Source: Lachnospiraceae bacterium
GTDB taxonomy: Bacteria; Bacillota; Clostridia; Lachnospirales; Lachnospiraceae
DNA: 32,041 nucleotides
Assembly: GCA_017622795.1 (NCBI GenBank)
Contig: JAGAQI010000147.1
Span: 1-32,041 of the forward strand
Direction: 5' to 3'
Shown: positions 7,548-32,041 of the stretch, one piece after another
Layout of the letters: each line of letters starts with the position of its first letter
How positions within the stretch are numbered: the first letter of the stretch is position 1
Position numbers and translations under genes: made by a program
Notes under the pieces: generated by a model
What the model saw: only the letters and a program-made list of their open reading frames with translations
What the model was told of the DNA's origin: nothing
The model's database searches: none

Positions 7548-7576
7548 TAGACTTGTTTTTCAAAATGTTGTATAAT
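7548..7576 (+). promoter_or_regulatory. promoter-like sequence pointing into a hairpin
   Basis: TAGACT (7548-7553), a 17-base spacer and TATAAT (7571-7576) on the + strand. A transcript would start near 7583, inside the hairpin that follows, so its purpose is unclear; it may be fortuitous. Confidence 0.35.
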
Positions 7577-7578
7577 GC

Positions 7579-7617
7579 AAAATGAGGTGTGCCTAGAAAT
7601 ATGCACACCTCATTTTT
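7579..7617. terminator. strong hairpin with T-run abutting the distal rlmH-end copy
   Basis: A perfect 14-bp stem AAAATGAGGTGTGC / GCACACCTCATTTT with a ten-base loop and T5 on the + side; on the minus side it ends in CATTTTGC. Its right arm overlaps the stop codon of the rlmH-like end at 7610-7640. It may be the original rlmH terminator, displaced when DNA inserted at the rlmH 3' end. Confidence 0.6.
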
Positions 7618-7700
7618 GCTTATGATAAGGTTCACCATAACGATTTTAGGACATAGGAAAAGCTCTGTGAAGTTATTCTACTGAGGGAAATATACACTAG
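7610..7700 (-). repeat. rlmH 3'-end copy 1 (distal att-like site) with conserved flank
   Basis: On the minus strand the sequence codes Tyr-Gly-Glu-Pro-Tyr-His-Lys-Gln-Lys then TGA (stop at 7610-7612), matching the RlmH C-terminus GEPYHK. The core TATGATAAGGTTCACC (+ strand, 7621-7636) differs at one of 16 positions from the true rlmH end. The flank 7661-7700 (ctctgtgaagtta, tctactgagg) is closely similar to 11374-11412. There is no upstream rlmH body, so this is an isolated tail. Confidence 0.7.
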
Positions 7701-8515
7701 TCTGATGTAAAATATCTTTGATCATTATAATCTTCTAGTAATTCATTTAAATAAATCCTTGTTGAATGACCTGTCCAGCTTTCATAGTCCCATAAATTAT
7801 ACTCATAAACACCGGTTTGAAGACAAAATTCGTATGGATAAAATTTGATTTTGTAATCACCACGTCTATCACTCCAGGAAATTAGTATAGAATCATCTAT
7901 AATCTCAACGGATGTAATCGGAATAGTTTCATTTCTGTGAATATAAAGTTCATCACCAACAGTTATCCCATCATAATTATGTGACCCATAAAGGTATACC
8001 TCCTTGGGGCCAATTGCCGGAATCACTTTGCCTATCACTTTTAGTGGAAGAAAAGGAAAAATCAAAAGCAGCAGCCCAAGCACTAAGCAAATTCGAGATG
8101 CAATTTTATTTTTAGATTTTAGATCAAATGACCATCTTGCAACCAATATAAAAATACTGCAAAAAAGAACAACAACTGCAGGAAGATCTTTCCCTCCGGC
8201 CAAAAGAACAATTCCCATAAATATCGCCACAAATAAAAGTATGAGTATTTTCATTCCTGATACAACTTTTTCTTCTCCGAAACGTTGAACAGCAGCGTTA
8301 TAAATCTCACGTTCCAAGATTTCCTTGTTCGTAAGTCCACCGTTAATAATTCGTTCGGTATTTTCTCTCTGCTCTTTTTGATTGAGTTCATTTTGACGTC
8401 TTAGCTCATTTGCAATGCGAAGCTTTTCGTTATGTAAATACTTATACTCATCAGTAGCACGCATGCTTTCAGATGTATAAGATTTTCCGGTTATATTACT
8501 ATAAAATTTCCCCAT
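7697..8515 (-). CDS. coiled-coil membrane protein, function unknown
   Basis: I do not recognise this 272-residue protein. Its N-terminal 85 residues are polar and likely helical or coiled-coil (EYKYLHNEKLRIANELRRQ). Three hydrophobic segments follow: about 88-106 (ILILLFVAIFMGIVLLAG), 111-127 (AVVVLFCSIFILVA) and 138-158 (RICLVLGLLLLIFPFLPL). The C-terminal part of about 100 residues is soluble and rich in Tyr and Asp. The start at 8515 has AAAGGAG six bases upstream; the longer frame from 8593 runs inside the preceding gene. It overlaps that gene by 17 bases, so the two are probably translationally coupled. It is the last gene of the accessory cluster and lies next to the distal rlmH-end copy. 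Bases are visibly more AT-rich than in thrS or helD. Confidence 0.7.
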   Translation of the reverse strand: MGKFYSNITGKSYTSESMRATDEYKYLHNEKLRIANELRRQNELNQKEQRENTERIINGGLTNKEILEREIYNAAVQRFGEEKVVSGMKILILLFVAIFMGIVLLAGGKDLPAVVVLFCSIFILVARWSFDLKSKNKIASRICLVLGLLLLIFPFLPLKVIGKVIPAIGPKEVYLYGSHNYDGITVGDELYIHRNETIPITSVEIIDDSILISWSDRRGDYKIKFYPYEFCLQTGVYEYNLWDYESWTGHSTRIYLNELLEDYNDQRYFTSD

Positions 8516-9098
8516 GATGTTCTCCTTTGAAAATAACATTTGTCTCATCGAAAGCAAATCTGGCTTTGGGATGATAAAATTCATAAACTTCAATTATTTC
8601 ATTATTTGCCTGTATCGTACAGGCACGAAATCTTTTTTCTTTCTTAGTATTCTTATAAGTAAAACCATTCAATTCTTTGACCTCTTCAAAATTCGAAACG
8701 ATTTTATCATAAATATCCATGCAGCAAACTATTTTTCGTGGTTTTAGAGCTTTAAAACAGCTTGTTAAACGTCCGCATATTTCTTGAGGAGTCATATCTT
8801 TATATTTCTTACTTACAGATGATTCTCCGGAAAGTGGATATAGATTTATATAAGCACATTTCCCAAGTTTATCATGAAAAGATTCCTTGCTGTGAAGTAA
8901 TATATCCGCCAGAAGCGATAACAGTTTGTAATACTTATTTTCTATTTTGGGTTGATAAACATCATTTTTAAACCAAAATTTGTTTTCATTATTGTTATCA
9001 TTAGGTTCTCTAAGTATAAAAAGGACTTCTGCTCTACCTAACTCTGATATTCCAAGGTAACCTTCTCTTTCCGGGGTATAGTATAATCTAGGGTCCAT
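8499..9098 (-). CDS. possible uracil-DNA-glycosylase-fold protein
   Basis: A 199-residue protein. Its motif order resembles the UDG superfamily: a hydrophobic strand with a Pro/Asn turn (EVLFILREPN), a central AYINLYPLSGE, a later strand IVCCMDIYDKIV that could match the usual 'ivllG..A' strand, and a C-terminal EFYHPKARFAF where UDGs have their catalytic HPS loop. None of the motifs is canonical, so the fold call is tentative and enzymatic activity is unproven. The start at 9098 has AAAGGAG eight bases upstream; the frame from 9143 reads through that site. It overlaps the membrane-protein gene downstream, which suggests the two act together, and sits behind the phosphatase and WYL genes in the AT-rich insert. 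Confidence 0.55.
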   Translation of the reverse strand: MDPRLYYTPEREGYLGISELGRAEVLFILREPNDNNNENKFWFKNDVYQPKIENKYYKLLSLLADILLHSKESFHDKLGKCAYINLYPLSGESSVSKKYKDMTPQEICGRLTSCFKALKPRKIVCCMDIYDKIVSNFEEVKELNGFTYKNTKKEKRFRACTIQANNEIIEVYEFYHPKARFAFDETNVIFKGEHHGEIL

Positions 9099-9180
9099 TA
9101 GTAATTCTCCTTTGATTTTTTTATAATACAGTTTCCATCTCACACACGATATTTTGTAGTTGAAGAATTTTTATCAATGA

Positions 9181-9867
9181 CTACTCAACATAAAATTCCT
9201 CTCCCGTATCTAAACAGATACATCCCAAATTATTTCCGAATGCTGCACCACAGTCTATTGCAATATGATTATTGCCTCTCCATATTTTCCCCTGAAAATG
9301 CTTATCAATAAGTATGGTAGGCGTATGTCCTGTCACTAACGTTATATCCTTAAAATAAATTTTCTCATAATCCGGTTCTCCAAGTATCAATGCTTTTTTT
9401 CGGCACTGTTCCGGATTCTCCGGCATATACTCTTTTTCCGGCACTGTATGAGACAAAAAATATTTTTTTCCGTCTATTATTAACATTTTGGAAAAAGGCA
9501 TTTTCCTTAAATAATTCAATACCATAAGTTTCTCTTGCTGTTCTAACCTAAGAAAGCTTTCATATGTCGGTAACCCGCCATCCGAAATCCAAAAAGCAAA
9601 CTGTTTGTCAATTTTAATTTTTGCGGTTGCTTCCTCCGATTCCATCAAACGGTTTAACATTAGCTCCGCTTTGTAGTCATGATTTCCCTGAAGCGCAATA
9701 ACATTTTTTCTGGTAATTAAATCCAGTATAATCTTAATTCCATCTGCTCCCCGGTCAACGATATCCCCAAGAATATAGAGGGTATCATTTTCTTTTAAAT
9801 CAATCATTAAAAGCATTTTGCTATATTTCTCAAAGCAGCCGTGTAAGTCTGACATGGCATAAATCAT
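9181..9867 (-). CDS. PPP-family metallophosphatase (serine/threonine phosphatase or Ap4A-hydrolase type)
   Basis: Calcineurin-like phosphoesterase with the full bimetal signature of the bacterial PPP family: SDLHG at 6-10, GDIVDRG at 34-40, GNHD at 61-64, then LSHTVP and VTGHTPT with the metal-binding histidines, and a final IDCG. At 228 residues it is the size of phage-lambda-type protein phosphatases and of PrpE/ApaH-like enzymes, which the sequence alone does not separate. It should act in the cytoplasm on phosphoproteins or dinucleoside polyphosphates with Mn or a similar metal. TAGGAGG lies just ahead of the ATG at 9867. It is the second gene of the island cluster, 76 bases after the WYL regulator. 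Confidence 0.9.
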   Translation of the reverse strand: MIYAMSDLHGCFEKYSKMLLMIDLKENDTLYILGDIVDRGADGIKIILDLITRKNVIALQGNHDYKAELMLNRLMESEEATAKIKIDKQFAFWISDGGLPTYESFLRLEQQEKLMVLNYLRKMPFSKMLIIDGKKYFLSHTVPEKEYMPENPEQCRKKALILGEPDYEKIYFKDITLVTGHTPTILIDKHFQGKIWRGNNHIAIDCGAAFGNNLGCICLDTGEEFYVE

Positions 9868-9943
9868 GGATGCCTCCTATAACTTTCTCTTTACAAAATA
9901 ACTATTTTTTTAAACATCCTTTATAAAAAGCACTAATTATATC

Positions 9944-10936
9944 CTAATACTGATCATATATTTTACTGATATATTCTTTAAACTCACCCACTCTTTTTTC
10001 AGGACTCAACAATTTAAGATTCGTTCCATAACTCGCAAGCCACTGGTAAAATCCCTCATTCACCGCAACGTTCACAGAAACAACAAATTTGTCCTCCCCC
10101 TTTCTGTGAAACATTATGTCATTACCAAATTTATCTGAAATGTTAAGTCTACACCAATTGATTCCTTCCAGCGTCACGTTTTCTTTTATTCCAGTCCATG
10201 AATGGGCACTTATCCTCAGATAATCACTATCTGTCATTGTGTGACCTATTTCCTTGAGTTCATCCACTTGTATCTTAGGTCTGATATCTAAGTTTGTCAT
10301 TTGAATGTTGACCATAAGATCTAACCTATAATTGTGAATAGAAGTGGAATCATCCGTACAACAGGCAACATAATATTTTCCATTCATCGGAATAAGGTAA
10401 TAAGGGGAAGCCTGTATTACTTCTCCATTATTTCTAAGTTTTTTATCATTGCTCATACGGTCAATATACTGAAAAGTAATTTTTTTATTGGCAACAATAG
10501 CTCTCATAACTAAATCAAAATAAACCGATAGGCGACGTTCTTTTTCCTTTACTATAGGATCAACCACTACCGTATTATCTATAAAAATTTCTGCATCCAG
10601 AGTTGCAAAACTTTTTATTCTTTTAATTAGGCTGCGGGTATCCTCAATTGTAAGAATTCTGTTAGACGCAATCGCATCTGCAATCAGTTTTAATTCAAAA
10701 TCCTGAAAAGTGTGTTCAATCATATACCAACCATCATTATGATTGTCACATAAAACAATCTGCAAACCGGTATCCTCAAGAATTTTCAAATCTCTTGATA
10801 TTGATTTTCTTTCAGCATCGATACCATATTTTTTTAGTTTTTTCCGAATTTCATCAATAGTTAATGGGTGATTTTCATCGGTCTTTTGCATTATTTCAAG
10901 TATTTTCAAAAGCTTGATTTTATTTTTTCCTTCCAT
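9944..10936 (-). CDS. WYL-domain transcriptional regulator
   Basis: A 330-residue protein with an N-terminal winged-helix of the HTH_11/DeoR type (KLLKILEIMQKTDENHPLTI, then RKSISRDLKILEDTGLQI), a middle region, and a WYL domain from about residue 135 (KITFQYID, ASPYYLIPMNGKYYVACC, YRLDLMVNI). It ends with the WCX-like part (EGFYQWLASYGTNLKLLSP). WYL domains bind nucleic acid or nucleotide ligands, and such regulators frequently control phage-defence or DNA-damage genes. The longest frame starts with TTG at 10954; AGAAAGG eight bases before the ATG at 10934-10936 favours the latter. It is the first gene of the four-gene cluster and probably controls it, but no operator was identified. Confidence 0.9.
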   Translation of the reverse strand: MEGKNKIKLLKILEIMQKTDENHPLTIDEIRKKLKKYGIDAERKSISRDLKILEDTGLQIVLCDNHNDGWYMIEHTFQDFELKLIADAIASNRILTIEDTRSLIKRIKSFATLDAEIFIDNTVVVDPIVKEKERRLSVYFDLVMRAIVANKKITFQYIDRMSNDKKLRNNGEVIQASPYYLIPMNGKYYVACCTDDSTSIHNYRLDLMVNIQMTNLDIRPKIQVDELKEIGHTMTDSDYLRISAHSWTGIKENVTLEGINWCRLNISDKFGNDIMFHRKGEDKFVVSVNVAVNEGFYQWLASYGTNLKLLSPEKRVGEFKEYISKIYDQY

Positions 10937-11023
10937 CAGATAATCCTTTCTCAACAGTGCATTTTGATATTTTTGTTGCTATCTCACTAAAACAAGGCTT
11001 TATCTACTCATAAACTCATGACC

Positions 11024-11032
11024 AGTATAGCA
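11024..11032 (-). promoter_or_regulatory. extended -10 promoter of the WYL gene cluster
   Basis: Minus-strand TGC-TATACT, an extended -10 element, about 80 bases upstream of the WYL start. No good -35 box stands at 17 bases, which the extended TG motif can compensate. Confidence 0.45.
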
Positions 11033-11138
11033 TATAAGGTTGTCCCAAAACTGTCACATCCAGTAATCCTTAATAAAGCCGAATACAAAAAAGATAAAGG
11101 ATGGTACATTTACCACCCTTTCAACACTTATCTCTACT

Positions 11139-11329
11139 AACAGTTCAGCCCGCGCCTATTCGCAAAGGCACCTTCGGTGCAGCGCATTCTGCGAAACGCA
11201 GAATACGCTTATTATCGCTGCTTCGCAGCTACTTTGCTCATATACGGGCGCTAACCCTGTGCAATGAGGCAACCACAAAAATATGCGAGCATATTTTGTG
11301 GTGGTTGTCATTGCGCAGGCTGAACTGTT
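11139..11329. mobile_element. 191-bp MITE-like element with 17-bp terminal inverted repeats
   Basis: The ends are AACAGTTCAGCCCGCGC (11139-11155) and its inverse (11313-11329), matching at 16 of 17 positions. The interior is a chain of hairpins: GCACC-TTC-GGTGC (11168-11180), ATTCTGCG-AAA-CGCAGAAT (11186-11204), GCTGC-TTC-GCAGC (11217-11229) and a long imperfect one at 11258-11317. No coding capacity is credible. No clear target-site duplication was seen. It could be a non-autonomous transposon, or a structured repeat or RNA. It fills most of the 540-base gap 10937-11475, the remainder of which holds the WYL promoter and the second rlmH-end copy. Confidence 0.6.
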
Positions 11330-11412
11330 TCATTTATGATACGGTTCACCGTATCGCTTTAATGGTGCGCAAAACCTCTGTGAAGTTAGTCTACTGAGGA
11401 AATTATACATTA
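11330..11412 (-). repeat. rlmH 3'-end copy 2 (internal att-like site) with conserved flank
   Basis: The minus strand codes Arg-Tyr-Gly-Glu-Pro-Tyr-His-Lys then TGA (11330-11332). The 19 bases 11332-11350 are identical to 13041-13059 at the true rlmH end. The core is extended into a hairpin (GATACGG-TTCA-CCGTATC, 11338-11355). The right flank, about 60 bases, is shared with copy 1 and contains TAGTCTACTGAGGAAATT (11387-11404), the inverse of 13024-13041 with one mismatch. Confidence 0.75.
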
Positions 11413-11475
11413 TTCCAAGCAAAAAACATCTATATGACAACTTTTAATTCCTTCCTGCTGTCATAAGAAAAAGAT

Positions 11476-12018
11476 TTATTTGCTAGTAAGTTGATAAATA
11501 ATTTGCGCCATTTCTTTTGGTGATTTGTTGATTGGCTCCAAAATCCATTGCCGCAACATGTAAATAATTCCACCGGACACATAATATGTGGCAAGTTTTA
11601 AGCTGGTATCGTCATGCGTATTAGTTATATCGCTATGCTTAATAAGCGAATACTGTTTCTGATAAAGTTCGTTGATTAAATCTACAAATTCATCATCCGT
11701 ACGGCACTTGAAAAGAATAGATAGCATATCTCGGTTTTCATAAAAGTAATTGCAGATATCCTCCAGCCAAGGAAGAGCATTTAAGTGAGTTCGATTTTTA
11801 TCTGCCAGTTTCTTAACTTCCAGAGACATGTTCCTTCGTATATCAGTCAAAATGTCTCCAGGTTGCTCATAATGCCTGTAAAAGGTTGCGCGATTAATTC
11901 CTGATTCGTTGCATAGTTCGGTTACATTAATTTTTGAAATATCTTTTGACTTAAGAAGCCTAAGCAATCCCTCTTGCAAAAGTCTTTTGGTAAGTGCAAT
12001 ACGCTGATCATCTTTCAT
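11476..12018 (-). CDS. TetR/AcrR-family transcriptional regulator
   Basis: A 180-residue repressor-type protein. The N-terminal helix-turn-helix is typical: TKRLLQEGLLRLLKSKDISKI, then VTELCNESGINRATFYRHY, followed by a helical ligand-binding domain with the TetR_C motif YYVSGGIIYMLRQWI. The chosen start (12018) has AAGAGG six bases upstream; the longer frame from 12060 has none. It is divergent from the TauE/SafE gene, and the shared intergenic region carries a palindrome inside the permease promoter, so it most likely represses that permease and possibly itself. The inducer is unknown. Confidence 0.9.
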   Translation of the reverse strand: MKDDQRIALTKRLLQEGLLRLLKSKDISKINVTELCNESGINRATFYRHYEQPGDILTDIRRNMSLEVKKLADKNRTHLNALPWLEDICNYFYENRDMLSILFKCRTDDEFVDLINELYQKQYSLIKHSDITNTHDDTSLKLATYYVSGGIIYMLRQWILEPINKSPKEMAQIIYQLTSK

Positions 12019-12100
12019 AACAATACCTCTTAATATAAATTTCATTTTTCCTTGCAACACATTTAGTTTTTATGTTGTATAACGTCCAATTGCTATAAAA

Positions 12101-12142
12101 CTGTTTATTGATTGTGCGACACGTGTATATTATAATAAACTG
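12101..12142 (+). promoter_or_regulatory. permease promoter with probable TetR operator
   Basis: TTGATT (12108-12113), a 17-base spacer and TATAAT (12131-12136). The spacer contains the perfect palindrome ACACGTGT (12119-12126), and the whole promoter is framed by inverted repeats CTGTTTATT (12101-12109) and AATAAACTG (12134-12142) matching at 8 of 9. A dimeric repressor bound here would block polymerase. Confidence 0.7.
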
Positions 12143-12183
12143 TGCCGAATAGAAAGTCAACAAAATATGGAGGTTACATAACT

Positions 12184-12951
12184 ATGGAAACATTTATTAC
12201 CATACTGGTATGTTTTTTAGCAGGAGCGGGAGCCGGAATAGGAACAGGATTTGCCGGTATGAGCGCAGCAGCAGTAGTTGGCCCAATGCTGGTCGCTTTT
12301 TTAGGAATACCGGCTTACGAGGCAGTTGGAATAGGTCTTATTAGTGATGTGTTGGCAAGCGCAGTTAGTGCATATACCTATAAGAAGAGTAAAAATTTAG
12401 ATATAAAAAATAGCATACCAATGCTTTTGTCGGTTCTGTTGTTTACCGTAGTTGGAAGCTTTGTCGCCAGTATGGTACCGGAAAGCACAATGAGTGGCAC
12501 TATGCAAATAGCTATGATTATTATAGGATTACGATTCTTGCTAAAGCCGGTTACTACCACTAAGGAACAAATGAATGCAGGATCAGCAAAAGAAAAACTA
12601 ATAAAAGCTATTTTAGGAGGAATATTTGTAGGATTCATCTGCGGATTTGTAGGTGCAGGTGGCGGAATGATGATGCTGTTTGTATTGACTTCTTTTTTAG
12701 GATATCAGATGCATATGGCGGTGGGAACCAGTGTATTTATTATGACATTTACAGCTTTGACAGGTGGAATCAGTCATTTCGCAATTGACGGAATGCCTGA
12801 TATGCTTTGTCTGGTGCTCTGTGCATTATTTACCCTCCTTTGGGCACGCATTGCAGCAAGAATTGCAAACAAATCGGACGCAAAACTATTAAACAGAGTA
12901 GTTGGAATTGTAATGATCGTAACAAGTGTGGTTATACTCTTCGTGAGTTAA
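12184..12951 (+). CDS. TauE/SafE-family sulfite/organosulfonate permease
   Basis: A 255-residue membrane protein with about eight hydrophobic segments in two related halves, each starting with a glycine-rich helix: CFLAGAGAGIGTGFAGMSAA and, from about residue 145, GGIFVGFICGFVGAGGGMMM. This duplicated GxGxGxxG pattern is the TauE/SafE (DUF81) hallmark; characterised members export sulfite or sulfoacetate. Substrate here is unknown. GGAGG ten bases before the ATG fixes the start; the frame from 12142 has no ribosome site and overlaps the promoter. It stands alone on the + strand, opposite the TetR gene, within the DNA inserted next to rlmH. Confidence 0.9.
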   Translation: METFITILVCFLAGAGAGIGTGFAGMSAAAVVGPMLVAFLGIPAYEAVGIGLISDVLASAVSAYTYKKSKNLDIKNSIPMLLSVLLFTVVGSFVASMVPESTMSGTMQIAMIIIGLRFLLKPVTTTKEQMNAGSAKEKLIKAILGGIFVGFICGFVGAGGGMMMLFVLTSFLGYQMHMAVGTSVFIMTFTALTGGISHFAIDGMPDMLCLVLCALFTLLWARIAARIANKSDAKLLNRVVGIVMIVTSVVILFVS

Positions 12952-12975
12952 AATTTATTAATAATTCTACAGTTA

Positions 12976-13017
12976 AAAACAATACCCAGTAAGCATATGC
13001 TTGCTGGATATTGTTTT
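12976..13017. terminator. bidirectional terminator between permease and rlmH
   Basis: AAAACAATA..CAG.AAGCA pairs with TGCTT.CTG..TATTGTTTT with few mismatches; A-rich and T-rich arms suit both directions. A second perfect palindrome, CTGAGGAATTTCCTCAG (13018-13034), stands between it and rlmH. Confidence 0.85.
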
Positions 13018-13023
13018 CTGAGG

Positions 13024-13059
13024 AATTTCCTCAGTGGACTATTTATGATACGGTTCACC
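13024..13059 (-). repeat. rlmH 3'-end att-like core with inverted-repeat arm
   Basis: The last codons of rlmH plus its stop form the sequence repeated at 11332-11350 and 7621-7636. Directly beyond the stop, minus-strand TAGTCCACTGAGGAAATT (13024-13041) is an inverted match (17 of 18) to 11387-11404. Direct cores with inverted arms near the ends are how site-specific rlmH insertions look in staphylococcal SCC elements. Confidence 0.65.
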
Positions 13060-13518
13060 CATCATAATTCTATAGCTTCTGTAAATCTGCTCCAGTAACA
13101 CCACTCTCATCAACTGATGTGGAAATGTCATCTTCGAAAAGCTGAGCAAATAATCCGCTCTCTTGTTAATACACTCCGCAAGCCCCAAAGAACCCCCAAT
13201 CACAAACACAATATGACTGGTGCCTCTTACACCAAGTTCATTGATTTTCTCCGAAAGTTCTTCCGAAGTTAATTGCTTACCAAGAATCGCAAGGACACAA
13301 ACATATGCATCCTCCGGAATGTATTTCATCAGACGTTCTGCCTCTTTTTGCTTAATTTGCTCTTCTAAAGCTTCCGAGGCACCGTCCGGCGTCTTTTCAT
13401 CTGCCACTTCGATGATTTCCAGCTTGCAATAACGGGACAATCGCTTGGAATATTCTTCGATGGCTCCCGTAAAGTACTTTTCCTTAATTTTACCTACACA
13501 TAACACAGTAATTTTCAT
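13039..13518 (-). CDS. rlmH: 23S rRNA pseudouridine-1915 N3-methyltransferase
   Basis: SPOUT-class methyltransferase that methylates pseudouridine 1915 of 23S rRNA on 70S ribosomes. The 159 residues match the family's usual length: MKITVLCVGKIKEKYF at the start, the AdoMet knot FVIGGSLG, then LSFSKMTFPHQLMRVVLLEQIYRSYRI and the invariant C-terminus GEPYHK. AGGAG precedes the ATG at 13518. It is last in the rex-to-rlmH operon. Its final codons are the repeated core described above, as expected if foreign DNA integrated here while regenerating the reading frame. In staphylococci this gene is orfX, the SCCmec target. Confidence 0.97.
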   Translation of the reverse strand: MKITVLCVGKIKEKYFTGAIEEYSKRLSRYCKLEIIEVADEKTPDGASEALEEQIKQKEAERLMKYIPEDAYVCVLAILGKQLTSEELSEKINELGVRGTSHIVFVIGGSLGLAECINKRADYLLSFSKMTFPHQLMRVVLLEQIYRSYRIMMGEPYHK

Positions 13519-22613: not shown

Positions 22614-22644
22614 CCGCCGTGCAATTGCACGGCGGCTCTTTTTA
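22614..22644. terminator. bidirectional terminator after udk operon and GGDEF genes
   Basis: A perfect palindrome CCGCCGTGCAATTGCACGGCGG (22614-22635), with CTCTTTTT on the + side and TTAGTTTTTTT on the minus side. It separates two convergent operons. Confidence 0.92.
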
Positions 22645-24531
22645 TTGACCGGACAGTTTTTTTCTGTGACGCTCTTTTTCTTCGTACATCAGACGATCCG
22701 AGCGTTCAATGATTTCTTCAAAGCTGAGTTTTTCATTTTCTTCCGTAATGTAAACTCCAATACTTGCATCTACCTCATACGGTTTTTCCGAAGAACGGTT
22801 AAATTCATTAAAATAATTTGTGAATGCAGCCCTAATTTCCTCCGGTCCCAATTTTCCACGGCACACAGCTAACATTTCATCCCCACCGTAGCGATTAAAC
22901 AAGGAGCCCTCCGGACATACTTTCTCCAACGCTTCCGCAACAGCACGAATAGCAAAGTCTCCTTCTTTATGACCAAAGGTGTCATTGATATATTTCAGGC
23001 GGTCTAAATCCGCAAGAATAATAGTAAGCTGCAAAGACTCATTCTCCGACTCCAGCAATTTCTGATATGCAAGTGCAAACCCTCTGCGGTTATACAGCCC
23101 TGTCAGGGTATCAATGCGATACATCTCATCAATTTGCTGCATCAGGTGATTTTTATACCGCATATTCCGATAACCGCCCAGTGCGGAATTTAACGAATTA
23201 GCAATCTGAGTAATTCTCGAACCCTGAATATGATCCAGCCTCATAAAATAAAACGCTACATATCCCATTGGTGTTCCCATGTGCTGCAATGCAGTCAGTA
23301 CAACTACTCTTGCATTATCCAGACAGTACTGGATGCTTGGAATAATCTGCTTTAGCCGGAACGGATACGGGCGAAAGTCCTCATAATGGTTGCTGTCAAA
23401 AAGCAACAGCATTTCCCGATTAACATCTCTCATTTGCTCGTTTTGATATTCTGCAGGATTTAAATTCTCTTCTAAAAAGTTCTTTTCCACCACGCAGGTC
23501 ATATCATAAAACATGGAATGACGCAATTGCTCTATCACCTGTTCTACAGAATCACTACGATGAATCTGCGCCATAATATTGGATAGATTGATTGCTTCAC
23601 TTTGATACAGATAAAATCTGTCATTTAACATATTTAAGTAGCGGGAGGCATCCACCGGAGCCTTTTCCTTGCAACCGCAGGACTCCATAAAGGAAAGTCT
23701 TGCAGGTACGAAAAAGCTTGCTGTCTGGCCTTTGTAGTTCTCAAGTGACACCAAAACTTCCCGCGTTTTTTTCGCAATATCTGCTGCTTCGCAGCTGGCA
23801 GAAGTAATACGCGGTGACGAAAAATTAATTTCCAAAATACCGTCAAAACCGGTGATTGCCACCTGTTCCGGAATTTTTATTCCGTATTTGTTTAACACAC
23901 CGCAAACAGCAATTGCCATTTTATCATTCGCACAGATAATTGCCTGTGGCAGCTTTCCGGATGCCACGATTTTTTCGGTTGCTTCTTCCGCAGGCCCCGA
24001 CCAGAAATCTCCATAGCTTACCATACTGTCGTCAAACGGGAGATTATTATCTTGCAGCACCTGTTTGAAAACATTCAAGCGATGGTCGGAAAAAGCGTTA
24101 TTTTTCAAGCCTGCCATATAATGAAGATTCGTCATTTTATGGTCTTCTACCATATGGCGGACCATTGCTTCAAAGCCTTTTTCCTGGTCAAACTGTATAT
24201 TGACACAGTCTTCTCTCTGCTTGCCGATGACAATGACCGGTACATCAAAATTCTTTGCATTTTGGATAATTGTCTGAATCACCACTTCATTCACAATGGT
24301 TTCTTCAAGCACTATCACCACATCTATAACAGAAAAATCCATCAGACTGTAGATATAAAACCAGGAAGCATTATTACTATCATTTACATCCAACACCGTA
24401 CTGGTATTATAAACCAACACACCATACCCTGCATCGGATACAGCATCGTTCAATGCTGTAATATAATCATTTGTCGCATCATCCTGTATTCTCGCCGCAC
24501 AGACAGCGATTATCTTTTTGTTTCCAATCAT
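22642..24531 (-). CDS. LacI-type sensor/GGDEF protein (paralogue 1)
   Basis: A 629-residue putative diguanylate cyclase. Residues about 5-275 form a LacI/periplasmic-binding-type sugar-sensor domain without DNA-binding helix (YITALNDAVSDAGYGVLVYN, VPVIVIGK, AIICANDKMAIAVCGVLNKYG, VAITGFDG). The motif ESCGC (283-287) follows, then a GAF-like middle part and a GGDEF domain from about 460 (RIDTLTGLYNRRGF, LADLDRLKYINDTFGHKEGD). The signature reads GGDEM instead of GGDEF (549-553), and no RxxD inhibitory site precedes it. There is no membrane segment or signal peptide, so the sensor should detect a cytoplasmic ligand and adjust c-di-GMP. The ATG at 24531 has GAGG at eight bases; a GTG at 24540 is less likely. 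It is 32 bases from its paralogue. Confidence 0.92.
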   Translation of the reverse strand: MIGNKKIIAVCAARIQDDATNDYITALNDAVSDAGYGVLVYNTSTVLDVNDSNNASWFYIYSLMDFSVIDVVIVLEETIVNEVVIQTIIQNAKNFDVPVIVIGKQREDCVNIQFDQEKGFEAMVRHMVEDHKMTNLHYMAGLKNNAFSDHRLNVFKQVLQDNNLPFDDSMVSYGDFWSGPAEEATEKIVASGKLPQAIICANDKMAIAVCGVLNKYGIKIPEQVAITGFDGILEINFSSPRITSASCEAADIAKKTREVLVSLENYKGQTASFFVPARLSFMESCGCKEKAPVDASRYLNMLNDRFYLYQSEAINLSNIMAQIHRSDSVEQVIEQLRHSMFYDMTCVVEKNFLEENLNPAEYQNEQMRDVNREMLLLFDSNHYEDFRPYPFRLKQIIPSIQYCLDNARVVVLTALQHMGTPMGYVAFYFMRLDHIQGSRITQIANSLNSALGGYRNMRYKNHLMQQIDEMYRIDTLTGLYNRRGFALAYQKLLESENESLQLTIILADLDRLKYINDTFGHKEGDFAIRAVAEALEKVCPEGSLFNRYGGDEMLAVCRGKLGPEEIRAAFTNYFNEFNRSSEKPYEVDASIGVYITEENEKLSFEEIIERSDRLMYEEKERHRKKLSGQ

Positions 24532-24563
24532 AATGGACACCTCGAGTTCCTGAATTTATTACA

Positions 24564-26447
24564 TTACTTGTTCTTGTTCTTTCTTTCCTTTTTTTCCTCA
24601 TACATCAGGTGGTCTGACTTCTCTACCAGTTCTTCAAAATCAAGGATTTCTCCTTCTCCGGTAATATAAATTCCCGTACTTGCTTCAATTGGATACTCTT
24701 TTCCGGAAGAACCGTTTAATTCATCAAAATATCTCCGAAATTCTTCCTTCATTTTTGCTATATCCTGAGCTCCCTGACACACCGCCAGCATTTCATCTCC
24801 GCCGAATCTGGTACATATGGATCCTGACGGGCAAATCCGCTGCAAAGCCGTTGCAACAGCACGGATGGCAAAGTCACCTTCTTTATGACCAAAGGTATCG
24901 TTAATAAACTTTAACCGATCCAAATCTGCCATAACAATTGTTAACGGCTTCCTACCTGCTTCTGTTTCCAACAGTTTATTATATTCCTTTTCAAATCCCC
25001 GCCGGTTATATAAACCGGTTAATGTATCAATCCGGTACATTTCATCGATTTGCTGCATCAGGAACTGCTTATAGCGCAAATTTCTATAGCCGCCGAATGC
25101 ATTATTTAATGCAGTTACGTTCTGTGGGATTTTCATATAATTACTGCTGGTCAGCTCGCTGAAGAACACACACGCGTAACCAATCGGCACATCCACATGA
25201 TACAGTGAAGTAAATACCAGAACTCTGCCATGCTCCACCAGATAATCCACGTGAGGAGTAATGTCTTTTGATGAAATGCTGTACGGAATAAATTCTTCTC
25301 CCGTAAAATCACTGTCAAATACGACAACCAATTCTTTTTCTTTACTTTCAGAACGGTTTGCCAGCCGGATTGGATTGCATGTTTCATCCAAATATTCTTT
25401 TTCTATCATGCAGCAGGTATCATAAATCACGTTTCTCTTTAATTCCAGCGCCACCTGTTTCAAAGAGTCACAGCGCTGCACTTGTGCCGTAATCAGGGAC
25501 AGCTCCAACTCCTCATCCTGAAAACGGTAAAGCCGGTTATATAACGTATTCAAATACTCGGAAGCATTTCTGGATTTTTTACCGATACAGCCGCAGGACT
25601 CCGCAATATAAAGCTTTGGAGGAACCAAAACCGTGCTTGTTTTTCCTTTTAACTGCTCTGCTTTGTCCAAAAGTTCCAAAGTTTTTACAGCCAAATCATC
25701 AGGATCACAGATTACCGAGGTAATTCTCGGAGTTGTAACATTAATTTCCGGGATACCGTCAAATCCTGTTACCGCCACATCCTCCGGAACACGGATTCCG
25801 TGTTTGTCTAGCACATCGCAAACAGCCAGTGCCATTCTGTCATTTGCACAAAGAATTGCCTCCGGAATATTGCCGGATGCCACAATTTTTTCTGTTTCCC
25901 GTTCCGCTGCCACGGAATAAAAATCGCCATAGCTTACCATGGAATCATCAAAAGGAAGCCCATGTTCTTCCAGCACCCTGCGAAACGCATTCAACCGGTA
26001 CTCAGAAAACTGATTTCCTTTGAATCCGGCCATAAAATGAAGCTTTGTCAAATGATGCACCTGAATCATATGGCGGACAATTTCAACAAAAGCATTTTCA
26101 TGATCAAACTTAATATTTGTACAGCCTTCGTGAGGCTCACCAATTACAAGAACCGGCACCTGATGCTTTTGGGCTTTGGCAATCAAAGCATCCGTTACTG
26201 CCTGATTACGCAACACTTCTTCATAAACGATAACCACATCGATAATGTCAAAATCCATGTAATCATAAATTGCAGTCTGAGTGCTGCCTTCATAAGAATC
26301 TACACTTACCGTAGAACAGGTATTGTACACAAAAATACTGTATCCGGCCGGTGTAACTACACGGTTTAATGCAGTAATATATTCATTGCTGGCATCGTCC
26401 TGTATTCTGGCCATACAAAGTGCTATGATTTTTTTATTATAAAGCAT
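24564..26447 (-). CDS. LacI-type sensor/GGDEF protein (paralogue 2)
   Basis: A 627-residue protein with the same architecture and clear similarity throughout to its downstream neighbour (for example NKKIIAxCxARIQDDAxNxYI at both N-termini). The LacI-like sensor covers about 3-275 (AGYSIFVYNT, VPVLVIGE, AILCANDRMALAVCDVLDKHG, VAVTGFDG), with ESCGC at 283-287, a middle domain, and GGDEF from about 460 with RFGGDEM at 547-553. Active-site motifs DTLTGLYNRRGF and ADLDRLKFINDTFGHKEGD are intact, and the same F-to-M change is present. GGGGTGA lies about six bases ahead of the ATG. It probably shares a transcript with paralogue 1 and lies 40 bases after the aldo/keto reductase gene. Confidence 0.92.
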   Translation of the reverse strand: MLYNKKIIALCMARIQDDASNEYITALNRVVTPAGYSIFVYNTCSTVSVDSYEGSTQTAIYDYMDFDIIDVVIVYEEVLRNQAVTDALIAKAQKHQVPVLVIGEPHEGCTNIKFDHENAFVEIVRHMIQVHHLTKLHFMAGFKGNQFSEYRLNAFRRVLEEHGLPFDDSMVSYGDFYSVAAERETEKIVASGNIPEAILCANDRMALAVCDVLDKHGIRVPEDVAVTGFDGIPEINVTTPRITSVICDPDDLAVKTLELLDKAEQLKGKTSTVLVPPKLYIAESCGCIGKKSRNASEYLNTLYNRLYRFQDEELELSLITAQVQRCDSLKQVALELKRNVIYDTCCMIEKEYLDETCNPIRLANRSESKEKELVVVFDSDFTGEEFIPYSISSKDITPHVDYLVEHGRVLVFTSLYHVDVPIGYACVFFSELTSSNYMKIPQNVTALNNAFGGYRNLRYKQFLMQQIDEMYRIDTLTGLYNRRGFEKEYNKLLETEAGRKPLTIVMADLDRLKFINDTFGHKEGDFAIRAVATALQRICPSGSICTRFGGDEMLAVCQGAQDIAKMKEEFRRYFDELNGSSGKEYPIEASTGIYITGEGEILDFEELVEKSDHLMYEEKKERKNKNK

Positions 26448-27652: not shown

Positions 27653-27681
27653 AGTGTACCACACTTTTACTGTTCCGTCAA
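27653..27681 (-). promoter_or_regulatory. promoter of the aldo/keto reductase gene
   Basis: TTGACG (27676-27681), 17 bases, TACACT (27653-27658) on the minus strand; the -35 box lies in the last codons of metH. It would allow the reductase and possibly the GGDEF pair to be expressed apart from the methionine genes. Confidence 0.6.
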
Positions 27682-30171
27682 AGATATTGCAACTTTTACT
27701 GCCTCTCCGGCATCCTTTGCATAACCGTCCGCACCGATTTCTTTCGCATAGTCCTCTGTAGTTACCGCACCACCGATAATTATCTTCACGGAAAGCCCTT
27801 CCGCGTTCTTTAAATCCACCACTTCTTTCATTCGTGTCATGGTAGTTGTCATAAGAGCCGACAGTGCAATTAATTCCGCACCGGTTTCCTTTGCCTTTTC
27901 AATAATTGCCTCGGATTCCACATCTTTTCCCATGTCAATTACGTCGAACCCATAATTCTTTAACATCAGGGAAACCAGATTCTTACCGATATCATGGATA
28001 TCTCCCTTTACCGTGGCAATGATCACCTTGCCGCGTTTTTTCCCATCCCCTGCAGCAAGCAACGGTTCCAACACCTCCATTGCCAGTTCCATGGTTTCTG
28101 CCGAAGCAATCAACTGAGGAAGGAAATACTTCTTTTGTTCGAACAGCTCACCCACCTTATTAATTGCAGGAATTAAATCTTTATTTAATATTTTATTTGC
28201 CCGTTCTGCTTTTTCAACGCCGTAATCGGTATTATCCAATGTATTTTTAGTCAATTCCAGGATATTTCTCTTGTTTCCTTTTAACACAGCATGAAATAAA
28301 GGCGCATCTGTTTCATTGTCACTTTCGCCTGTACTTTCTTTCTTTTGGCCGGACATTTCCGGGATTTTCCCTCCTGTAACAGGCGCAGCACCTCCAGCCG
28401 GTACCACCATATCCGCAGAGGCTTCAATAAACGCAAGATCCGCCCCTTCTTTTCCCATAAGCAAATCCGAAGCCAGCATGAACTGCATAGTCATTTTTTG
28501 ACATGGATTAGCAATGGCCATGGTAAGTCCACTACCGATTGCCATGGTAAGAAATGCCGTATTGACAAAGCTTCTTGCCGGCAGTCCGAAAGAAATATTG
28601 GAAAGACCGATACTGGTAGCCAAGCCTAAGTCTTCCCGGCAGTAACGTATGGTCGCAAGAGTTTCTAACGCAGCATTTTTTCCGGCACCAATGGTATTTA
28701 CCAGACCGTCTACAATGATATCTTCTTTTTCCAATCCTTCTTTTAAAGCTTCTGTCATAACCATATGAATAAAACGGCGCTTTTCAAACTGATCCTTTGG
28801 CAATCCTGCTTCGGATAACGGAAGCAGAATAAACATCGCACCGTATTTTTTTACAATCGGAAGCAGTTTTTCCATTTTCTCTTTTTCGCAGGAAACAGAA
28901 TTCACCAAAGCACGGCCAGGATAAATCCTAAGTGCTTCTTCAATCACATCCACATGGCTGGAATCAATGGCCAGGGGAAGGGAAGAATTTTGGGTTACTT
29001 CGTAAATAATCTGAAGCAGACGTTCCTTTTCATCAATTCCCGGCATGCCTGCGTTTACGTCCAAAATATAAGCACCGGCTTCTTCCTGTTCCTTGGCATA
29101 CTGTAATACCAAATCCATTCTGCCCTCCTTCAGTTCTGCCTGAAGTGCTTTCTTACCCGTCGGATTGATTCGTTCACCGATAATTTTAAACTGTCCGTCT
29201 AATTCAATCGGGAAAATATCCCGTTCCGTAGAAAGAATTGCCTTGTGCGGCTGTCCTTCCTGCGGCTTCTTTTTCTTTATCAGCTCTGACACTGCTGCAA
29301 TGTGAGCAGGTTCGGAACCGCAGCAACCGCCGACAATACCGGCACCTGCCTCCACCAGCACTTCCATATGCTTTGCAAACTCCTTCGGAGTCATCTTATA
29401 TACGGTTTTTCCTTTGGAAAGCTCCGGCATCCCGGCATTCGGCTTGGCAATCACAGGAACCTCCGCCACTGCTGCCATACGCTTAATAATCTCTACCATG
29501 GTTTCCGGTCCGGCAGAACAGTTTACACCAACCGCATCAGCTCCTAACGCCTGCAACACTACAACAGCTGCTTCCGGTGTAGTTCCGTACATGGTCTTGT
29601 TATCACCGGCAAAGGTCAATGTTACCATCACCGGAAGATTGCAGGTTTCCTTTACCGCCAACACTGCCGCACGGCATTCCTGCAGACTCATCATGGTTTC
29701 CACCACGAACAAATCCACTCCTGCTTCACAAAGTACCTGTACCTGTTCCTTGTATATATCCACCAGCTCTTCAAACTGTAATTTGCCTATCGGATATACC
29801 AACTCACCGGTCATGGTAAGGTCACCGGCAATAAAATGTCTGCCTACATTGCAGCGCTTCTTTTCTTCAAATTCCGCCACAGCATCTTTGGATAATGCCA
29901 CCAGTTCCCGGTTCATTTCTGCGAGTTTATCCTGCAGACCATACTCCTTAAGTTTTATCCGGTTCGCACTGAAGGTCGGAGCATACAAAATATCCGTTCC
30001 TGCTTCCAAAAACGCAATCTGAAGCTTTTTCGCTTTTTCTTTGTTTTCCAAAATCCACTGCTCCGGACATACACCGGTCGGCATGCCTGCTTTTTGCAGA
30101 TTGGTGCCGGTGGCACCATCCAGTAATATAATTTTTTTCTCACATAAACTTTTAAACTCACGCTTTGTCAT
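27667..30171 (-). CDS. metH: cobalamin-dependent methionine synthase without reactivation domain
   Basis: Transfers a methyl group from methyl-tetrahydrofolate via cobalamin to homocysteine. Residue numbers are for the frame from 30177. The homocysteine domain (1-300) has zinc ligands Cys220 (VNCSAGP) and Cys285/286 (GGCCGS). The pterin-binding domain (about 325-590) has IGERINPTGKK and LDVNAGMPG. A polar linker (about 600-627, rich in Gly, Ser, Glu, Asp) precedes the B12 cap and binding domains, with DIHDIG at 726-731 carrying the cobalt-ligand His728. The protein ends there at 836 residues; Escherichia coli MetH (about 1,227) has a further AdoMet-dependent reactivation domain, so a separate activator must exist. 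The ATG at 30169-30171 is eight bases from AGAAGGG; the ATG at 30177 is only two away. Confidence 0.96.
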   Translation of the reverse strand: MTKREFKSLCEKKIILLDGATGTNLQKAGMPTGVCPEQWILENKEKAKKLQIAFLEAGTDILYAPTFSANRIKLKEYGLQDKLAEMNRELVALSKDAVAEFEEKKRCNVGRHFIAGDLTMTGELVYPIGKLQFEELVDIYKEQVQVLCEAGVDLFVVETMMSLQECRAAVLAVKETCNLPVMVTLTFAGDNKTMYGTTPEAAVVVLQALGADAVGVNCSAGPETMVEIIKRMAAVAEVPVIAKPNAGMPELSKGKTVYKMTPKEFAKHMEVLVEAGAGIVGGCCGSEPAHIAAVSELIKKKKPQEGQPHKAILSTERDIFPIELDGQFKIIGERINPTGKKALQAELKEGRMDLVLQYAKEQEEAGAYILDVNAGMPGIDEKERLLQIIYEVTQNSSLPLAIDSSHVDVIEEALRIYPGRALVNSVSCEKEKMEKLLPIVKKYGAMFILLPLSEAGLPKDQFEKRRFIHMVMTEALKEGLEKEDIIVDGLVNTIGAGKNAALETLATIRYCREDLGLATSIGLSNISFGLPARSFVNTAFLTMAIGSGLTMAIANPCQKMTMQFMLASDLLMGKEGADLAFIEASADMVVPAGGAAPVTGGKIPEMSGQKKESTGESDNETDAPLFHAVLKGNKRNILELTKNTLDNTDYGVEKAERANKILNKDLIPAINKVGELFEQKKYFLPQLIASAETMELAMEVLEPLLAAGDGKKRGKVIIATVKGDIHDIGKNLVSLMLKNYGFDVIDMGKDVESEAIIEKAKETGAELIALSALMTTTMTRMKEVVDLKNAEGLSVKIIIGGAVTTEDYAKEIGADGYAKDAGEAVKVAISLTEQ

Positions 30172-30212
30172 TCTCATTACCCTTCTTATCTATCAATTTT
30201 ACAAGCAAGGAC

Positions 30213-32041
30213 TTATTCGCCCAAAATTCTCTCCATCAGGCCAACCCGGTTAAACGGAAGCATAAAGTAGTAACCATCTGCATATTGTTCCAGCTTCTTC
30301 ATCAGTTCCTTTGCAATCTCTGCTCCGACCGCTTCGCCCTCTTCTCTTGTCATATCTTCACGGTACCGGTTAATCACCTCATCCGGTACATTCATCCCCG
30401 CCATTTCATTGCGGATAAAGCTGGCATTTTTCAGACTTACCGGCGGTAGGATTCCTGCCAGAATCTTTGCCCCCGTACGTTCCTTCAGCCATTGAATGCG
30501 TTCAATATCTGTATCAGAGAACACCGGTTGGGTCAGGAAGAAAGAGCATCCTGCTGCCATCTTCTTTTCCATTCGTTCCGCCACCTTTTCCCCGTTCGGG
30601 AAGTTATAATTTAACGCTCCGCCAAAGAAAAATGCATCCTCCGGGAACAATTCCTGATTCATTTCCGTTACATACTTCATAAACCGGATGGAATTATAGT
30701 CAAACACGCCGGTAACCGTTTTCCTGTCGTCTCCGGGCACCGGGTCACCGGTAACAATAAGCAAATTCCGAAGTCCATTCATATGCGCCCCAAGCAAAAG
30801 AGACCGCATCGCTATTACATTCCGGTCACGACAGCAGATATGAGGAATTACCTGCATGCCGGTCTGACTGCTGATATGAAGTGCTGTCAGCGTAGAATCC
30901 GCACGGCTGCGTCCCATAGGCGAATCCGCAAAGGTCAGTACGTCCACCGGATACTGTGCCAGTGTTTTTGCACAGGAAAGCAGTTTTTCACCATCCGCAT
31001 TGTAGGGAGGGTCCAACTCCACTGCAATTACTTTTTCTCCGCGGAAGAGTTTTTCTTTTAGTTTATTGTTTCCTCCTGTTTCCGGACGGTAATCCTCCTG
31101 CCCGGTACCGGTTGAAACCGCAGATTTCTTTGTTTCTGCAATGAATCTTTCATATTCTTCTTTGGAAACCCGCTCCACCGCCTGCTTTCCGGAAATTTTC
31201 TTGCGCATTTCCCGAATAAAGGATGGCATCGTACCACAGCAGCCGCCAACAATATCGATACCCAGCTTTGCTATCTCGACCATGTTATCACCGAAATATC
31301 CGGCACTGTTTAAAAATGCCGCCCGGCTGGAAAAAGTTTCTGCATAACCTGCATTTGGTGCCGCCAGTACAAACACATCTTTTGGCAACCTGCACTTCGC
31401 CAGCACAGACTTCATATGTACCGAGCCGATGCCGCAATTAAAACCGATGGCATCCGCCAAGGCTAATTTATCAGAAAACAATAAACGCTCTGCTTTCTGA
31501 CCCGCAGTAGTAAATCCGTTTTTATTAATACAAAAGCTGACGGAACAAAAAGCTTCCGGCGCTTTTTTCTTTATGTACGATAAAATTTCCTGCACAAACT
31601 CCGTAGACGAAAAAGTTTCCAGCCAGAAAATGTCCATGCCTTCTTCAAAAAACACATCACACATGCGATAGTATTCCGTAAGAAGTTCTTCCGCTTCCTT
31701 TTCGCCACCACCCGCAATCGGTCCAATGTCCGCCGCCACAAAGCATTCTCTTCCGGTGCGAAGCTTTTCTTCCTCTACGGCCTGTTTGGCAAGATTGCAA
31801 GCCTTGCGCACTAAATCAGTTCTTACCTCATCCCTGACGCCCGGCAACACTACAGAATTCACCGCAAAGGTATTGGTGCGGATGATGTCCGCTCCTGCTT
31901 CCAGATACTCTTTGTGGATGTTCAGAATCACTTCCGGTTGCGAAATTGTGGCCAGTTCCGCAATATCTTCTTTATGCTCCTGTAACTGCTGGTAATAGGT
32001 ACCCATGGCACCATCCATCAGCAGAATATTTTCTTGTAGAA
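30213..32041 (-). CDS. homocysteine S-methyltransferase/methylenetetrahydrofolate reductase fusion, 5' end cut by window edge
   Basis: The N-terminal domain is a homocysteine methyltransferase with the zinc cysteines in FNCGIGS and VGGCCGTMPS. After a linker, the C-terminal part is a MetF-type reductase (VIAVELDPPYNAD, LLIVTGDPVPGDDR, FFFGGALNYNFPNGE, FFLTQPVF). The layout matches Bacillus YitJ. It would make methyl-tetrahydrofolate and may also methylate homocysteine, directly feeding MetH, whose gene starts 41 bases downstream. The first ATG in the window is at 32018, but the frame stays open to the edge and reads LQENILLMDGAMGT, the normal family context, so the true start lies to the right, outside the window. 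About 608 residues are visible. Confidence 0.94.
   Translation of the reverse strand, partial: LQENILLMDGAMGTYYQQLQEHKEDIAELATISQPEVILNIHKEYLEAGADIIRTNTFAVNSVVLPGVRDEVRTDLVRKACNLAKQAVEEEKLRTGRECFVAADIGPIAGGGEKEAEELLTEYYRMCDVFFEEGMDIFWLETFSSTEFVQEILSYIKKKAPEAFCSVSFCINKNGFTTAGQKAERLLFSDKLALADAIGFNCGIGSVHMKSVLAKCRLPKDVFVLAAPNAGYAETFSSRAAFLNSAGYFGDNMVEIAKLGIDIVGGCCGTMPSFIREMRKKISGKQAVERVSKEEYERFIAETKKSAVSTGTGQEDYRPETGGNNKLKEKLFRGEKVIAVELDPPYNADGEKLLSCAKTLAQYPVDVLTFADSPMGRSRADSTLTALHISSQTGMQVIPHICCRDRNVIAMRSLLLGAHMNGLRNLLIVTGDPVPGDDRKTVTGVFDYNSIRFMKYVTEMNQELFPEDAFFFGGALNYNFPNGEKVAERMEKKMAAGCSFFLTQPVFSDTDIERIQWLKERTGAKILAGILPPVSLKNASFIRNEMAGMNVPDEVINRYREDMTREEGEAVGAEIAKELMKKLEQYADGYYFMLPFNRVGLMERILGE

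Follow-up and report, generated by a model that had tools for sequence, protein, structure and literature searches.

Behind rlmH in a Lachnospiraceae bacterium (NCBI assembly GCA_017622795.1, contig JAGAQI010000147.1), the last codons of this gene recur and bound two adjacent intervals, here called elements A and B, which lie between rlmH and helD. The window analysed is one whole contig (32,041 nucleotides, nt; G000:C120) of a 147-contig genome that is 86.6% complete, and it was compared with a set of 397 genomes of the family, in which G001, G002 and G003 are genus mates, the first two being sister species. A preliminary description of this DNA had proposed tandem insertions at the rlmH 3' end of the type of the staphylococcal cassette chromosome (SCC). 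The features that define the two elements are listed below, where core denotes the repeated rlmH end.

13039-13518, minus strand: rlmH, intact, 159 amino acids (aa), ending in GEPYHK-stop; its last codons are the insertion site (list of open reading frames, ORFs)
13042-13059, minus strand: rlmH-proximal core, GA centre at 13055-13056
13024-13041, minus strand: right-end arm of A, beside the core; inverted match at 17 of 18 bases to 11387-11404
11347-13055, minus strand: element A, 1,709 bp between core centres, with a TetR regulator and a TauE/SafE permease
11351-11415, minus strand: left end of A, containing the arm 11387-11404 and resembling the left end of B
11333-11350, minus strand: core between A and B, GA centre at 11346-11347; a displaced earlier rlmH end
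11139-11332, minus strand: rlmH-proximal flank with a terminator-like hairpin, displaced by A
7633-11346, minus strand: element B, about 3.7 kb, with a WYL regulator, a phosphoesterase and two proteins without a Pfam match
7637-7702, minus strand: left end of B; with the core included, 78% identical to the left end of A over 83 bases
7619-7636, minus strand: distal core, GA centre at 7632-7633, continuing as YHKQK-stop

The central observation of the preliminary description, that the rlmH end is present three times in the same orientation, held: only 0.02 core matches are expected per window by chance, and none of 100 shuffled sequences reached three. The core at rlmH and that at 11333-11350 are identical at all 18 bases, or 19 counting the next base (11332-11350), as had been described. 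The distal core differs from the rlmH end at two of 18 positions, in agreement with the single mismatch in 16 bases (7621-7636) reported before, and its continuation as YHKQK-stop was likewise borne out. All three cores lie on one strand and contain TATCATAA, with GA at the centre of each. The isolated copies (7619 and 11333) do share their adjoining left flank (87% over 45 nt); its best 18-nt identity is 17, which none of 300 shuffles equalled. A search of the whole assembly found this left-end unit in two copies, both at the rlmH locus. The genes in between are indeed AT-richer than their surroundings, since 7637-13041 (5,405 bp, GC 0.351) has the lowest GC of any equal stretch on the contig in 200-bp steps; element B has 0.343 and element A 0.368, and the outer flanks have 0.447 and 0.438.

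Boundaries of elements A and B

Element A is a precise insertion, with G001 as the empty-site relative. When the flanks of A were joined at the core, BLAST returned one 724-base alignment to G001 over the junction (536 bits), whereas the unjoined window gave two pieces (329 and 232 bits). Directly 3' of rlmH in G001 (C26:129-367) lies a match to window 11110-11350 at 85% identity. The joined flanks also cross the junction in G002, with only 23 bases to spare, and in G003 the alignment reaches the junction without crossing it; rlmH itself is 99, 96 and 87% identical to those of the three genus mates. The hairpin beside 11333 (arms 11139-11155 and 11313-11329) occurs 3' of rlmH in both G001 and G002 and is thus the terminator displaced by A, so that A entered between rlmH and this older terminator. 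The inverted arms at the ends of A match at 17 of 18 bases, as first described, and none of 300 shuffles did as well, but they stand at unequal distances from the centre.

None of the three genus mates carries the genes of A or B at rlmH, and their own sequence at this place is different, which removes the objection that close relatives might all share these genes. G002 has the same start of the hairpin region displaced by A and carries sigma-factor-like and other genes, G003 has ABC-transporter-like genes, and G001 has an insertion-sequence-like gene at a contig end, all as read from the sequence. Repeated arm-like motifs, CTGAGGAAATTCCTCAG and CTACTGAGGAA, lie behind rlmH in G003 (L052:1450-1600), where the core is absent; they may represent degenerate ends of elements of this kind. 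Motifs of the CTGAGGAAATTCCTCAG type also occur behind rlmH in G002, degenerate and without a core.

As an insertion, element B is less certain than A. From the helD side, the homology to G002 includes the hairpin in front of helD and ends at 7617, directly beside the distal core; this hairpin is perhaps the oldest rlmH-side terminator. The interior of G002 differs from that of B, and its distal end shows no core. The right arm of A matches the flank of the 7619 copy at 14 of 18 bases, a value reached by four of 300 shuffles. The expectation that some relatives have rlmH followed directly by helD was borne out for gene order, in that about 170 bp separate rlmH from a helD-like gene behind it in G263, of another genus; it failed at the DNA level, where no relative examined has an empty site for B. 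The order in G263 therefore supports an old rlmH-helD arrangement only. Contig 22 of G001 was tried as the helD side of that genome and rejected, the weak match being an AT-rich stretch before an apparent tRNA gene, and the 7.5 kb examined containing no helD-like ORF.

The remaining features of this region are the genes carried by the two elements and the hairpin beyond B.

12142-12951, plus strand: TauE/SafE permease of A (PF01925, 130 bits)
11476-12060, minus strand: TetR-family regulator of A (TetR_C_8, Pfam)
9944-10954, minus strand: WYL-domain regulator of B (Pfam)
9181-9867, minus strand: calcineurin-like phosphoesterase of B (Pfam)
8499-9143, minus strand: 214-aa protein of B without a Pfam match
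7697-8593, minus strand: 298-aa protein of B without a Pfam match
7572-7623, strand not assigned: hairpin in front of helD

DNA similar to the permease gene, at 64-76%, is found in other genera. A stretch 83% identical to the WYL regulator of B lies on another contig of the same genome (G000:C55:28224-29216).

CcrB-like recombinases and rlmH-end cores in relatives

No ccr recombinase was found at 7600-13060 and, by Pfam, no helicase gene in A or B; the ORF list and Pfam runs on six of the ORFs of the two elements agree with the earlier statement that no recombinase is visible. The genome as a whole encodes four large serine recombinases. Three of them were placed in the tree described below, all outside the Ccr-like clade, and were rejected as the acting enzyme; the fourth, a 333-aa fragment at a contig edge, was left out of the tree for its length. 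The surroundings examined of all four lack the core (at most two mismatches).

Other members of the family carry recombinases at the site. The 29.5-kb element of [Clostridium] fimetarium DSM 9179 (G278) begins at rlmH in L135, reaches as far as a distal core in L136 and encodes a 549-aa recombinase preceded by a D5_N/DUF5906 protein, together with genes that read as type I restriction genes. This enzyme scores 347.5 bits on the NCBIfam CcrB model, below the cut-off of 900 bits, and is therefore not called CcrB. A 9.2-kb element in Lachnospiraceae bacterium B84_9 (G164) likewise reaches from rlmH to a distal core and holds a 560-aa recombinase (387.7 bits) and a DUF1643 protein. In G147 the contig with the 555-aa recombinase (353.9 bits) is not the one that carries rlmH, but it has a core copy 43 bp from the end of the recombinase gene, and G262 has a core-flanked recombinase interrupted by a stop. 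At E 1e-60, no match to the G278 enzyme was found in the 397 genomes outside these four. On the CcrB model, the other full-length large serine recombinases of the family that were run score 67-200 bits; the set included three truncated or partial ones, and the two lowest score 27 and 45 bits. The helicase candidates of G164 and G278 matched no solved structure at E 0.01.

The same association holds more widely. A scan with three intact recombinases yielded 79 loci from the best 80 of 169, queries included. Among the 70 loci at a recombinase identity of at least 41%, 65 have a same-strand core match, and 61 have a core away from both rlmH and the locus start; at identities of 33% or less, none of nine loci has a same-strand core and one has an opposite-strand match. 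Same-strand matches in the 70 loci number 100 (19 rlmH ends, two near the locus start and 79 others), against four on the opposite strand. Where rlmH is in view at named loci, a further downstream core lies on the same strand in 15 of 21 cases and on the other strand in none. In a midpoint-rooted tree of 91 sequences (seven of 98 matches, shorter than 380 aa, were dropped), 63 form a single clade with a value of 99 in the Shimodaira-Hasegawa-like approximate likelihood ratio test. CcrB-like large serine recombinases next to rlmH-end cores are found in Lachnospiraceae and also in Clostridium and Bacillaceae. In Brevibacillus gelatini (L252:9929-12255), a large serine recombinase stands beside rlmH in opposite orientation and falls outside this clade.

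The arms around the core differ by lineage, with TAAGTGCGAA in many Lachnospiraceae, AAATGAGGTTTTTAC in Clostridium and Bacillaceae, GGAGAGTTTTAC in G245, G156 and G121, and CGGTAATT in G278. Arms at opposite ends of an interval agree in 10.56 of 19 positions, slightly more than after shuffling within lineages (9.71; 1/2000; 34 pairs). The comparison with shuffling over all lineages (10.6 versus 8.8) was discarded as overstated, the within-lineage control being the valid one.

A dyad pattern drawn from the distal sites, GATACGG-N-GA-ACCGTAYCAYAA (GA-centred, at most one mismatch), occurs at 15 places in seven of the 397 genomes, and its reversed control at none. Eight of these places are downstream of rlmH on the same contig: two in G156 (39 and 55 kb away), two in G245, one in G278 (29.5 kb away) and one each in G233, G121 and the window. 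Of the other seven, five belong to two distant loci of G245, one to another contig of G233 and one to G363. The sites or a close variant are present downstream of rlmH in G245, G156, G278, G233, G121 and G164. The idea that extra cores are widely over-represented behind rlmH across the family was considered and rejected. Among 57 rlmH loci an extra core was seen on the same strand in seven and on the opposite strand in two; L135, L137, L138, L148 and L150 had entered this set owing to earlier matches, and without them the counts are 4/52 versus 2/52 in the roughly 20 kb examined, so that no wide excess is shown within this distance of rlmH. In G139, a second rlmH end with a longer coding stretch lies 1.8 kb downstream of rlmH (L062:2377-2394), perhaps the mark of another type of integrating element.

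Intervals without a recombinase are frequent between cores. We counted 34 distinct core-to-core intervals at named loci, their cores being recognised by pattern and not checked individually; 20 contain a recombinase ORF and 14 contain none, the latter comprising four of 142 bp and ten of 1.1-4.2 kb. Eubacterium plexicaudatum ASF492 (L251) has two intervals without recombinase, of 1.1 and 1.4 kb, nearest rlmH and, beyond them, a 3.4-kb interval with a recombinase ORF. The window's elements, at 1.7 and 3.7 kb, belong to this recombinase-free kind, and SCC-type ends without ccr in a stacked arrangement are seen in A and, less certainly, in B. Cores exactly 142 bp apart occur at L192, L195, L240 and L249 (L200 being the same place as L249), with no 70-aa ORF between them; such a pair is either a minimal cassette or a double site.

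Another series is that of G245, a one-contig genome, in which a stretch of about 16 kb behind the rlmH core contains six more cores. No large serine recombinase was found between these cores, and neither of the two found in G245 falls in the Ccr-like clade. One of its sites is a near-perfect palindrome. Distant site series in the same genome lie at L113 and L114, near 874-881 kb and 1,355-1,361 kb, with genes that read as a riboflavin operon between two of the sites.

Proposed insertion in trans and its alternatives

We interpret A and B as two small tandem cassettes of SCC type without a recombinase of their own, inserted at the 3' end of rlmH and probably moved in trans, and place the probability of this reading at about 0.78. 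It upholds the earlier proposal of tandem SCC-type insertion, which is supported by the empty site of A and the boundary on the helD side, and further by the GA-centred dyad at the distal site of A and the CcrB-like recombinases at rlmH-end cores in the family. By analogy with SCC and with the Enterococcus cassette chromosome (ECC), the target would be a site in the last rlmH codons, GGT-GA-ACC GTATCATAA, and its partner a similar site on a circular cassette. A Ccr-type dimer would bind both sites, cut at GA and join the strands crosswise in a conservative site-specific recombination, in which the cassette would supply rlmH with an equivalent end and the former end would be shifted outwards. 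Because each insertion would restore the rlmH end and displace the previous one, the newest cassettes would stack beside rlmH; B (7633-11346) would then have arrived first and A (11347-13055) second. As A and B have no recombinase, a Ccr-type enzyme of another, complete element probably acted on them in trans.

Several observations weigh against this interpretation. A Ccr-type recombinase was not found in the window genome, in which three of the four large serine recombinases could be placed and the assembly is 86.6% complete, and the elements of G245, G156, G121 and G233 contain no large serine recombinase in the stretches examined. The window's arms, of the TCCACTGAGGAAATT type, match no recombinase-bearing element found, and the right end of A occurs in one of the 397 family genomes, namely the window's own. 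The distance to the centre is 39 nt for the left arm of A and 13 nt for the right, whereas the sites of relatives are nearly symmetric. The ends of B agree with each other at 10 of 18 bases, which amounts to no match (300 of 300 shuffles), and its rlmH-proximal flank is common to G001 and, in part, G002; given these points and the missing empty site, B may be an old element with a replaced interior. The link between core and CcrB-like enzymes also came from searching with that enzyme, and tyrosine recombinases were not searched for.

A variant compatible with trans-moved cassettes is that A and B are dead remnants of larger SCC-type elements, immobile since their recombinase was deleted. The divergence between the interiors of B and G002, the coreless distal end in G002 and the degenerate-looking arms in G002 and G003 all fit such decay. 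The matching arms and exact boundary of A speak against it, as does the frequency of small recombinase-free intervals elsewhere, and we regard it as a minority possibility of some weight.

Insertion by a tyrosine integrase, or by another enzyme that uses 3' gene ends, in place of a Ccr-type serine recombinase appears improbable. A tyrosine integrase would be equally compatible with an identity block of 18 bases, the window elements encode no enzyme, and no tyrosine integrase was among the six proteins run against Pfam, with the relatives not searched for one. Tyrosine-integrase-type elements often leave a longer copy of the gene end, and the second rlmH end in G139 is such a longer copy. The dyad centred on GA at the distal site of A argues for the serine enzyme, and so do the CcrB-like recombinases at the core in many relatives, though these loci were found through that enzyme. 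A dispersed repeat, such as a miniature inverted-repeat transposable element or a repetitive extragenic palindrome whose copies fell near rlmH by coincidence, could account for the coreless arm-like CTGAGGAAATTCCTCAG motifs of G003 and G002 and is very improbable, being largely refuted by a left-end unit that is confined to this locus instead of lying at many unrelated ones, by a core that comprises the rlmH coding end and by the collinearity with G001 that taking out A restores.

Two gene pairs elsewhere in the window were noted from their sequence. Adjacent paralogues at 22642-26447 resemble LacI-type sensor domains fused to GGDEF domains, and two adjacent genes at 27667-32018 resemble parts of a split cobalamin-dependent methionine synthase and a methyltransferase/reductase fusion.

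Relation to known cassette systems

Pseudo-SCC elements are those without ccr. Both these and composite SCC elements are known (passages of PMC10061031), and the window agrees with SCC and SCCmec (CcrAB/CcrC) in this respect as well as in the rlmH 3' end, the TATCATAA core, the GA centre and, in element A though not in B, inverted end repeats. The SCC integration site requires GA as its central dinucleotide (PMC10581047), and TATCATAA is the conserved motif of SCC and ECC sites (PMC6222049). The window differs from SCC in its clostridial host, in the size of its elements (1.7 and 3.7 kb), in the lack of ccr and helicase genes, in its arms and in that none of the cargo genes with a Pfam match is a resistance gene. 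ECC, with ccrAB-Ent, also uses the rlmH 3' end and TATCATAA; it has att sites of about 50 bp with a dyad in attR and attECC, and several attR copies in 16 of 32 elements (as described in passages of PMC6222049). ECC elements measure 21-78 kb, carry two recombinases and have been demonstrated to circularise and transfer (PMC6222049), whereas the window elements are tiny, enzyme-free and known from sequence alone. Most Pol-SSB/helicase islands of Bacillota are located behind rlmH together with large serine recombinases, and some are tandem; the passages on their hosts do not name Lachnospiraceae (PMC10061031). The same source places the islands of C. difficile and C. perfringens in ssrA, which disagrees with the inclusion of C. 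difficile among the hosts of SCC-like rlmH islands in PMC10581047.

The window elements are not SCC proper, because they lack the defining ccr genes; most likely they work like such elements and depend on them. SCC-type elements outside staphylococci are already known, namely ECC in Enterococcus (PMC6222049), the rlmH islands of several Bacillota (PMC10061031) and those of the genera enumerated in PMC10581047. Their presence at rlmH in Lachnospiraceae and the cassette arrays look new as far as the open-licence PMC papers searched go; among the titles listed, none concerns rlmH elements of this family.

Integron arrays consist of serial small cassettes with one recombination site each, moved by an enzyme encoded elsewhere. 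The arrangement described here is similar in its serial small cassettes with one site each and differs in that the sites are copies of the rlmH core and not attC. We would suggest, tentatively and with more doubt than confidence, that the rlmH end of Lachnospiraceae is the entry point of an integron-like system with double-stranded sites, in which small cassettes without a recombinase are collected one after another by Ccr-type enzymes acting in trans. The site series of G245, with no large serine recombinase between the cores at rlmH, favour this idea. Against it stands the fact that matching arms at a fixed offset occur in only two of six consecutive intervals of the rlmH series.

If the insertion of A and B in trans is read correctly, the type of cassette by which methicillin resistance spread among staphylococci would have relatives of like mechanism in commensal Clostridia, which use the same gene and even the same bases, and the family would form part of a wider reservoir of cassette-chromosome recombinases and cargo. 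It would also offer testable material on the mobilisation of cassettes without ccr and on rlmH as a general cassette-collecting site.

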